Origin: Muribaculaceae bacterium Isolate-110 (HZI)
Lineage (GTDB): Bacteria; Bacteroidota; Bacteroidia; Bacteroidales; Muribaculaceae
DNA length: 64,000 nt
Reading direction: 5' to 3'
NCBI GenBank assembly: GCA_003762875.1
Contig: RIBL01000002.1
Span: forward strand, 62,001-126,000
Shown here: positions 22,318 through 24,929 of the stretch, piece by piece
Layout: the number at the start of each line of letters is the position of its first letter
How positions within the stretch are numbered: position 1 is the first letter of the stretch
Made by a program: the position numbers and the translations under genes
Notes under the pieces: model-generated
Seen by the model: only the letters and a program-made list of their open reading frames with translations
Database searches by the model: none
What the model was told of the DNA's origin: nothing

Positions 22318-22911
22318 ATGAGCACACAGGTATCCAACATTTCAGACGAGACTATCGCAGAGATCGCGCGCCACTATAAGGCCATAATCACTCTGCTTGG
22401 TGAGGACATAGAACGCGAAGGACTGATCAAGACCCCTATGCGCGCCGCCAAAGCCATGGTATATGCCACACGTGGCTATCGTCAGGATGCCGACACGATT
22501 ATCAACGAGGCCATATTCACCCACGAGGGGTCTGACATGGTGATTGTGCGCGACATTGAGTTTTACTCGCTGTGCGAGCACCACATACTCCCATTCTACG
22601 GCAAAGTGTCGATAGGATACATCCCCGACAGCCGCACCATCGGACTTAGCAAACTCGCCCGCCTGGTCGACTTCTACGCCCGCCGTCTGCAGGTACAGGA
22701 GCGCATGACTGCGCAGATATGTCGAATAGTCATGGAGAAACTCGGAGCAAAGGGCGTGATTGTGGCATGCACAGCCGACCACTTGTGCATGAAGATGCGA
22801 GGTGTAGAAAAACAGATGTCGGCCACCACTACGGTCGAGAGCGCGGGAGCGTTCAAAGAGTCAGCTTCTCTGCGCGAAGAATTCTTCCGCACGCTCGCAC
22901 AAGGACGCTGA
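22318..22911 (+). CDS. folE: GTP cyclohydrolase I
   Basis: A 197-residue FolE. Zinc and catalytic motifs are present: SLCEHHILPFYGKVSIGYIP carries the Cys and His ligands, and ACTADHLCMKMRG carries the third. It converts GTP to 7,8-dihydroneopterin triphosphate, the first step of folate (or queuosine/pterin) synthesis, as a homodecamer. It is the last gene before a 608-base non-coding interval. Confidence 0.98.
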   Translation: MSTQVSNISDETIAEIARHYKAIITLLGEDIEREGLIKTPMRAAKAMVYATRGYRQDADTIINEAIFTHEGSDMVIVRDIEFYSLCEHHILPFYGKVSIGYIPDSRTIGLSKLARLVDFYARRLQVQERMTAQICRIVMEKLGAKGVIVACTADHLCMKMRGVEKQMSATTTVESAGAFKESASLREEFFRTLAQGR

Positions 22912-23066: not shown

Positions 23067-23097
23067 TTGCGCATAACCGATTAATGCAGTAATTTTG
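23067..23097 (+). promoter_or_regulatory. Promoter of candidate small RNA
   Basis: TTG (23067-23069), a 20-base spacer and TAATTTTG (23090-23097). No protein start follows, but a terminator lies about 260 bases downstream. Confidence 0.6.
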
Positions 23098-23102
23098 CAT
23101 TA

Positions 23103-23361
23103 GAAAAATAACACGGTACTATCGGAAAACACGCAAGTAATAGTCTACAATTAAATTTTTACTAAAACTACATAGCAAATAATCTTCAGCCATTATCTGA
23201 TACTTTTTTTAAGAAACGTTCATTCCTTTTTTTACCATTAATGTCAAATCTAAGATTGCTGACACCGCCTGATGATCAAGGCTCATAAAAGCATACCGAT
23301 AATTAGAATTGATGATTATAATTACGGGCACTTTCTGCGCGAGGCAGAGGGTGCTTTTTTA
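23103..23361 (+). ncRNA. Candidate small RNA of about 260 nt
   Basis: The region between a Bacteroidetes-type promoter and a strong intrinsic terminator holds no convincing protein gene. Near its 3' end a stem pairs CCGATAATTAGAAT with ATTATAATTACGG (one indel and one mismatch), directly followed by the terminator stem. The rest is AT-rich. Only tiny frames are present (for example a 15-codon one starting near 23240). It is not recognisable as tmRNA, RNase P RNA or a tRNA. The 5' end is inferred from the -7 box. Confidence 0.45.
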
Positions 23362-23362
23362 A
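23328..23362 (+). terminator. Terminator of candidate small RNA
   Basis: GGGCACTTTCTGC and GCAGAGGGTGC pair around a short GCGAG loop, followed by a run of six T residues. Confidence 0.8.
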
Positions 23363-23386: not shown

Positions 23387-23509
23387 GAGATACAAAAGGA
23401 CAAAAGACTCAGAAGAGACAAAAGTTTCATAATTCATAGGCAAAGCAAGTGCTTTATGAAATAAAAAAACTTTTGTCTCTTCTGAGCCTTTTGTCCTTTT
23501 GGATATCCT
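23387..23509. repeat. Convergent-end palindrome, copy 2
   Basis: An imperfect inverted repeat with arms of about 41-46 bases (23387-23427 and 23464-23509). The left arm reads GATACAAAAGGACAAAAG, then ACTCAGAAGAGACAAAAG. An inner TTTCATAA/TTATGAAA pair extends the stem. It lies just beyond the stop of rlmD on the minus strand and faces the folE side, as the other copies face convergent genes. Confidence 0.88.
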
Positions 23510-23519
23510 CCCCCTGTTT

Positions 23520-24929
23520 TTACCGCAAAGTCAGGGCGACGACGTTTTCGACGTGCTGTGTGTGGGGGAACATATCGACAGGCTGCACGGCCTCGATGTC
23601 ATATTTTTCATGAAGCAAGGCGAGGTCGCGGGCCTGTGTGGCCGGATTGCAGCTCACATATACTATGCGGGCCGGAGAGGCTTCGAGTATCACCTTGACT
23701 ACATCTTCATGCATGCCGGCTCGCGGGGGGTCGACTATCATCACGTCGGGACGGCCGTGACGCTCTATAAACTCGGCCGTGAGCACATTTTTCATATCTC
23801 CGGCATAAAACTCGGTATTATCCAGACCGTTGACACGGGCATTGACCTTGGCGTCCTCGATAGCCTCGGGCACATACTCCACACCCACCACATGGCGGCA
23901 TGAGCGCGCGAGGAAGAGCGCGATGGTGCCGGTGCCGGTGTAGAGGTCATAGACGAGTTCATCGCCCGTCAGACGCGCGAAGTCTCGAGCCACGCTGTAC
24001 AGGCGGTAAGCCTGACGTGAGTTGGTCTGATAGAACGACTTGGGACCGATGCGAAACCGCAGCCCTTCCATCTCCTCCTCGATATATTCACGACCTTTCC
24101 ACGTAACGATGTCGAGGTCGCCCACGGTGTCGTTGACCTTGGTGTTGATCACATATTGCAGCGAAGTGATTTCGGGAAACTCCGCGTCGACGGCTTTCAT
24201 CAGTGCCTCGATGGCCTCGGGATTGTCCTCTCCGACGGCCATAAGCACCATCACCTCGCCGGTCGAGGCTATGCGTATCATGAGTGTGCGCAGGAAGCCG
24301 TGGTTGGCGCGTATGTCATAAAACTCCAGATTGTGCTCCTTGCCGTAATTCTTTATAAATGTGCGTATGCGGTTGCCGAGATCGTCCTGAAGATGGCATG
24401 CATTAATGTCGAGCACCTTGTCAAATCCGCCCGGTATGTGAAATCCGGCTGCGCGGCGGTCGGGAAACTCCACGCCTGATCTCATCTGGTCAAATGTGAG
24501 CCACATCTTTGACGAGAAAGTATATTCCATCTTGTTGCGATAGTGCCATATCTCCTCCGACCCGAGTATGGGGGTGATTTCGGGAAACGGCACCTTGGCT
24601 ATCCTCTCGAGCGCGTCCTTGACCTGACGCTGCTTGCATTGCAACTGAAATTCATACGGCAGATGCTGCCAGCGACAGCCGCCACATACGGTGAAGTGCT
24701 CGCAGCGCGGCTCCTCTCTGACAGGCGAAGGCTCGACAAGACGCTCTATATGCCCCTCGGCATATGACTTCTTCTTGCGATCGAGCTTGACGTCAGCTAC
24801 ATCGCCCGGTGCTCCAAACGGAATAAACACTACCATATCATCGACGCGCGCCAGGGCATTGCCCTCGGCGGCCACATCGGTTATCTTGACCCCTTCGAGA
24901 GTGGGGAGCTCTTTGCGTTTTCTGCTCAT
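23520..24929 (-). CDS. rlmD: 23S rRNA (uracil-5-)-methyltransferase, RlmD/TrmA type
   Basis: A 469-residue class I SAM-dependent methyltransferase. It has an N-terminal TRAM RNA-binding domain (residues about 8-68), an iron-sulfur cluster motif (CEHFTVCGGCRWQH, with the fourth Cys in LQCKQ), a SAM-binding VYDLYTGTGTIALFLA, and the catalytic region IVDPPRAGM and IVYVSCNPATQARDL. The family makes 5-methyluridine in 23S rRNA. Which position is modified (RlmD, RlmC or RlmCD type) is not settled by sequence alone, so the symbol is a family-level guess. It is transcribed alone and converges on folE across a palindromic repeat. Confidence 0.88.
   Translation of the reverse strand: MSRKRKELPTLEGVKITDVAAEGNALARVDDMVVFIPFGAPGDVADVKLDRKKKSYAEGHIERLVEPSPVREEPRCEHFTVCGGCRWQHLPYEFQLQCKQRQVKDALERIAKVPFPEITPILGSEEIWHYRNKMEYTFSSKMWLTFDQMRSGVEFPDRRAAGFHIPGGFDKVLDINACHLQDDLGNRIRTFIKNYGKEHNLEFYDIRANHGFLRTLMIRIASTGEVMVLMAVGEDNPEAIEALMKAVDAEFPEITSLQYVINTKVNDTVGDLDIVTWKGREYIEEEMEGLRFRIGPKSFYQTNSRQAYRLYSVARDFARLTGDELVYDLYTGTGTIALFLARSCRHVVGVEYVPEAIEDAKVNARVNGLDNTEFYAGDMKNVLTAEFIERHGRPDVMIVDPPRAGMHEDVVKVILEASPARIVYVSCNPATQARDLALLHEKYDIEAVQPVDMFPHTQHVENVVALTLR

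Follow-up and report, generated by a model that had tools for sequence, protein, structure and literature searches.

A predicted small RNA of Duncaniella with a conserved core complementary to mRNA start regions

Two systems described in Bacteroides come closest to the locus reported here. GibS of Bacteroides thetaiotaomicron is an intergenic, trans-acting sRNA of ~145 nt with a non-canonical promoter and a Rho-independent terminator, in which an extended seed in the single-stranded 5′ part is predicted to pair over start codons; it represses the glucan-branching enzyme BT_0771 (PMC7366714). FopS of Bacteroides comprises fourteen paralogues that have canonical promoters and 5′ seeds directed toward susC-type mRNAs, and pairing at the start codon represses translation (PMC11697453).

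Here we analyse a 64,000-nt stretch of DNA (the window) from Muribaculaceae bacterium Isolate-110 (HZI) and propose, with a probability of roughly 0.82, that the gap after folE encodes a trans-acting sRNA of ~260 nt that is predicted to repress translation initiation. Bacteria of this family are abundant in the gut of mice. Among the matches listed for literature on sRNAs of Muribaculaceae, Duncaniella or Bacteroides, the text available named no Muribaculaceae sRNA; among those listed for sRNAs with era or obg, for GibS or FopS and for RNA sponges with OmpA, no title concerned this Duncaniella RNA. In the proposed mechanism, the sRNA would have a promoter of its own, its transcription would stop at an intrinsic terminator, and a core of ~21–26 nt just upstream of that terminator would pair with its complement in 5′ leaders or over start codons. 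The predicted targets are most often the mRNAs of ribosome-assembly factors (era, obg, der and engB) and, in the window's genome, glgB and engB. Pairing over start regions would most likely block translation initiation, by analogy with GibS and FopS.

Compared by description with GibS, the Duncaniella candidate is likewise an intergenic RNA of the Bacteroidales with predicted start-codon pairing and a terminator, but it differs in the position of its core (at the 3′ end, beside the terminator), in its length of ~260 nt and in its usual TAnnTTTG promoter (PMC7366714). It shares start-codon pairing (here predicted) and a canonical promoter with FopS and is unlike it in being single per genome, in the position of the core and in its targets (PMC11697453).

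The locus between folE and rlmD

The features of the locus are listed in Table 1. TTG (23067–23069) and TAATTTTG (23090–23097) lie 20 bases apart, an arrangement that we take to be the Bacteroidota promoter form; a sigma-70 scan, which looks for a consensus other than the Bacteroidota form, accordingly found no promoter in the region (chance expectation 1.8). The terminator consists of a 13-pair stem (23326–23356) followed by a T run, and a terminator scan reported 3 terminator-like sites in the region against 1.5 expected. The predicted transcript would extend from ~23104, a start placed by reference to the promoter, to 23361. The complete promoter and strong terminator described by the first-pass annotation thus hold, and its limits for the feature are correct to within a few bases (23067–23361). 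The paired stem that it noted near the 3′ end is present, and is the terminator itself rather than a separate element.

Table 1. Coordinates of the features in the window
Feature	Position	Strand	Basis or remark
Bacteroidota-type promoter (TTG, 20-nt spacer, TAATTTTG)	23067..23097	+	sequence; unit kept in 21/23 orthologous loci
Variable 5′ part of predicted transcript	23104..23294	+	start inferred from promoter; no conserved ORF seen
Hyperconserved core	23295..23323	+	antisense to mRNA start regions
Intrinsic terminator	23326..23361	+	two-sided compensatory changes among relatives
folE (GTP cyclohydrolase I), upstream neighbour	22318..22911	+	TIGR00063 above cut-off; context only
rlmD (23S rRNA uracil methyltransferase), convergent downstream neighbour	23520..24929	-	TIGR00479 above cut-off; context only

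When 61 genomes were searched at the DNA level, 25 gave a match. The genus Duncaniella accounts for 24 of these; the one match outside it (G046) covers 41 bases of the A/T-rich middle and does not include the core. The gene was found, as one copy per genome, in 23 of 27 Duncaniella genomes (loci L001–L023), among them every one of the 14 with a completeness of at least 90% and a contamination of at most 5%; the genomes in which it was not found (G007, G016, G021 and G024) are 71–84% complete. folE and/or rlmD lie within the retrieved flanks of 15 of the 23 loci. TTG-N20-TAnnTTTG precedes the core in 21 of them, with a spacer of 20 bases in each, and the TAnnTTTG box alone in 22, at 157–420 bases ahead of the core. 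The length and sequence of the stretch from promoter to core differ widely among species, and 25 consecutive positions (23295–23319) are invariant in all 23 loci. The compensatory changes that an alignment of relatives was meant to reveal were found: 6 of 19 predicted pairs are changed on both sides, all six of them in the terminator.

An exact 15-mer of the core is present in 23 of the 27 Duncaniella genomes; across 29 further genera of the family, 270 genomes were searched for it and 5 matched. Read by eye, these five matches (L173–L177) look like chance, as do two others that lie outside the family by record title (L184 and L196). A core 17-mer is present in 14 viral contigs. Beside rlmD in other genera (28 loci), the longest match to the core is 10, against 11 for the reversed control, and the core is therefore absent there. 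Promoter-like strings occur in 8 of 27 such loci; a terminator scan of 27 reported no counterpart, and is unreliable because it missed a terminator that is visible in L366. These loci may still hold an sRNA unrelated to this one.

Coding capacity is slight. On the + strand, only two ORFs of at least 12 aa start with ATG (15 and 16 aa), and neither has a counterpart in relatives when the 23 loci are compared by eye; the sRNA stretch is overlapped on the - strand by ORFs with GTG/TTG starts, 40 and 46 aa in length. The earlier statement that ~260 bases lack a credible protein gene is borne out, and a small peptide was rejected as a candidate since by eye no ORF is conserved among the 23 loci. 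The 260-nt fold is marginally better than that of shuffled sequences (z = -1.76; 11 of 200 shuffles fold as well), so the evidence is one of conservation and not of global structure. Part of the core is predicted to be base-paired, and the core can form a weak A-U hairpin (23299–23305/23313–23319), which does not vary in any of the 23 loci and therefore says nothing on structure.

Rfam covariance searches gave no match at gathering score in the whole 64 kb. FopS was absent both from that scan and from a scan of the gap at E up to 10, and the 6S family does not appear among the 37 matches of the latter. With no Rfam 6S match, no rod-like fold and a length that varies between species, the suggestion of a 6S-like RNA is not upheld. 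Catalogued RNAs were set aside as well, the best matches at relaxed E being mostly microRNA models placed on a palindrome at 23397–23497, all below gathering scores.

At the level of sequence, the unit has its own promoter and its own terminator, as expected of a trans-acting base-pairing sRNA. The independent non-coding RNA of the first-pass annotation is the best explanation: relatives retain both promoter and terminator, no ORF is conserved in the drifting 5′ part and the antisense core has sites elsewhere; such sites would also explain why the core is under strong constraint. The sequence itself shows the conservation of the gene, the promoter, the terminator covariation and the enrichment of sites at gene starts described below; we infer transcription, pairing in the cell and repression as its outcome.

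Several minor features were observed by eye or in passing. Eight loci (L006, L007, L010, L012, L013, L015, L016 and L020) have a second conserved 5′ block around TTCTTATCCTTTTCTGAATT and TACCGCTAATTTTCC, possibly a second functional region, and four others (L014, L018, L019 and L021) have a different transcript-start block, ATATCCATTAATATATTCCAGTC, in common, with the core unchanged. Between the sRNA terminator and rlmD lies the near-perfect long palindrome mentioned above (23397–23497), whose arm has 8 matches at ≤4 mismatches in 391 kb of the genome, 2 of them the element itself; it looks like a dispersed palindromic repeat.

Sites antisense to the core at gene starts

Sites were searched for with the core 21-mer at ≤3 mismatches and with the 15-mer TTGATGATTATAATT at ≤1 mismatch. 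The 15-mer gave 89 matches in the 27 genomes, compared with 7 for the reversed pattern, and the 66 that lie outside the sRNA genes were all retrieved and tested for an ORF start between -17 and +60 of the site's end. Such a start lies on the antisense strand at 54 of 66 sites and on the sense strand at 10; 46 sites are exclusively antisense and 2 exclusively sense. The corresponding rate at random positions of the same stretches is 21%, a local background because the stretches were retrieved around sites. At the level of the genus, whose species are non-independent samples, the core is complementary to the translation start regions of unlinked genes.

Ribosome-assembly factors account for 19 of the 54 antisense start sites (era 8, obg 4, der 4, engB 2 and rbfA 1). 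Era, Obg, EngB (YsxC) and RbfA score above NCBIfam cut-offs; the names Der, Dxs and GlgB are best matches of partial sequences, below the full-length cut-offs. Other genes with such sites encode GlgB, a DUF4924 protein, Dxs, an IspE-like kinase (named from a Pfam match just below cut-off), a purine nucleoside phosphorylase-like protein and DUF308 proteins. The naming of the L153 target as hemA was dropped because its Pfam matches are weak ones to metallo-beta-lactamase. glgB is a predicted target in four genomes (G000, which is the window's, G004, G013 and G016), a likeness to the GibS target BT_0771 (PMC7366714); the recurrence may reflect shared logic or coincidence.

The sites are unevenly distributed. 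Twelve of the 66 are in genomes in which the sRNA gene was not found, namely G016 (11 sites; 82% complete) and G007 (1 site; 77% complete), and 5 of the 23 sRNA-bearing genomes (G000, G001, G012, G018 and G023) hold no further 15-mer site at ≤1 mismatch; in G012 the longest complement is 4 nt in the obg leader and 5 nt in the era leader. In the start sites with a single mismatch, the mismatches fall at positions 1–5, 9–10 and 13–15 and never at 6–8 or 11–12. Changes that G-U pairing would tolerate are not enriched among them (9 of 37 compared with 8.2 expected, from 37 of the 38 listed sites), and for the loci with a variant core (L009, L022 and L023) the targets read show no matching change.

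Three genes, obg, era and a lipoprotein gene, were tested directly, chosen on the strength of sites that pattern searches had revealed in some of the genomes. In the obg leader (-70 to +6), an exact complement of at least 9 nt is present in 16 of 26 Duncaniella loci and in none of 23 from other genera (Fisher P ~2e-6, species taken as independent). These figures draw on 26 of 27 loci in the genus and on 23 of 27 elsewhere, where the obg search had matched 27 of 29 genomes. Reversed, sense and complemented cores reach 9 nt in 0 of 26 Duncaniella leaders each, and the sense control does so in 2 of 23 leaders of other genera. For era, 9 of 18 readable Duncaniella leaders have at least 9 nt, one of which is reached by 6 of 100 shuffles. 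An analysis of both leaders recognised the start in 18 of the 24 era loci and 23 of the 27 obg loci and was confined to these; most of those left out were viewed by eye and gave an imperfect site in G007 era and another in G004 obg. The obg leaders match different parts of the core, some AATTATAATCATCA, others CATCAATTCTAA or the middle; such a sliding register fits RNA pairing by any core stretch and not a protein reading a fixed site.

That distinction bears on a reading in which a transcription factor binds the shared motif as its operator on the DNA, the sRNA gene counts as just one further site and pairing is irrelevant. The core is indeed an imperfect palindrome, TTAnAAT-N5-ATTnTAA, and a TAnnTTTG box lies within 60 bases upstream at 20 of the 66 sites. 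An operator fits poorly, however, with the strong orientation bias of the sites (46 to 2), with a register that slides so that some sites hold only one half of the motif, with sites that overlap start codons and also occur in 3′UTRs, and with a core that in the sRNA gene adjoins the terminator, 157–420 bases from the promoter box. We regard an operator as very unlikely.

A lipoprotein 3′UTR and the targets in the window's genome

The third gene tested encodes a YiaD-type glycine-zipper/OmpA-like lipoprotein (NF053611, above cut-off). Within 100 nt past the stop codon, 12 of 26 Duncaniella loci have a complement of at least 10 nt; three controls each give 0 of 26, and the loci of other genera 0 of 19 (26 of 27 loci used in the genus and 19 of 20 elsewhere, from a search that matched 20 of 29 genomes). 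In the window's genome, this 3′UTR holds a 19-nt complement, ATCATCAATTCTAATTATC, just upstream of a hairpin that resembles a terminator and has a T run, and the duplex predicted with the sRNA is, at -28.2 kcal/mol, the most stable of the five examined. Exact copies of AATTAGAATTGATGAT in that genome are confined to the lipoprotein 3′UTR and the sRNA gene.

Enterobacterial 3′UTR-derived RNA sponges carry the complement of an sRNA core just before the mRNA terminator. The lipoprotein gene resembles them in having its complement within the mRNA 3′UTR and just before the terminator, a likeness at the level of sequence. We infer that the complement is either a decoy (sponge) or a further target.

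The gene tests also bear on a second alternative, in which the locus yields a structured or coding short transcript (a small-peptide mRNA, a cis-acting leader or a 6S-like RNA) whose core is kept for reasons of its own, the sites elsewhere being effects of UTR composition. The core does lie within a predicted hairpin ahead of the terminator. Composition would nevertheless be hard to reconcile with reversed, sense and complement controls at 0 of 26 in both the obg and lipoprotein tests and with obg leaders of other genera that lack sites (0 of 23); nor is there an ORF conserved by eye or an Rfam match at gathering score, and the downstream gene, rlmD, is convergent. This alternative seems to us less probable still than an operator. 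Least probable of all is that the lipoprotein 3′UTR is the main functional partner and start-codon sites are minor: it holds the only other exact AATTAGAATTGATGAT copy and gives the strongest predicted duplex in the window's genome, but 14 of 26 genomes lack a 3′UTR match of at least 10 nt and start-codon sites are common in the genus.

A trans-acting sRNA predicted to act at start codons remains our preferred reading, and it can be extended, tentatively, to a genus-specific regulator that would coordinately damp Era, Obg, Der, EngB and RbfA through start-codon pairing, with the lipoprotein 3′UTR as a conserved sponge through which envelope expression would tune ribosome assembly. In this extension, which is possible though we would not favour it, the target set would be rewired quickly between species because any core register suffices. 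The Duncaniella sRNA proposes a testable post-transcriptional control of ribosome-assembly factors, and the start-codon sites and drifting register among 27 related species offer a natural experiment on how the regulon of an sRNA is gained and lost.

In the window's own genome, glgB (C1) and engB (C79) carry imperfect sites that lie next to their starts or overlap them, with predicted duplexes of -22.0 and -19.0 kcal/mol, and the longest complement is only 6 nt in the era leader and 7 nt in the obg leader. A 10-nt complement occurs in 4 of 275 leaders in 391 kb (358 kb of the window's contig and 33 kb around two sites already found), which is not significant against shuffled cores (mean 1.2, maximum 6), and the 18-mer at ≤3 mismatches gives 6 matches there compared with 4 for the reversed control. 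In another genome (G005), 11 of 308 leaders have such a complement (shuffled mean 1.7, maximum 5), a partly selected sample because most of the stretches lie on contigs where sites had been found beforehand. The few sites in the window's genome and the larger number elsewhere indicate that the regulon varies strongly between species, and for the window's genome alone the case rests mainly on gene conservation and the 3′UTR site.

In G016, which is 82% complete and in which the sRNA gene was not found, the antisense motif occurs downstream of a gene as three near-copies in tandem, with 0, 2 and 4 mismatches (L073; G016:C11:1639687-1640400).
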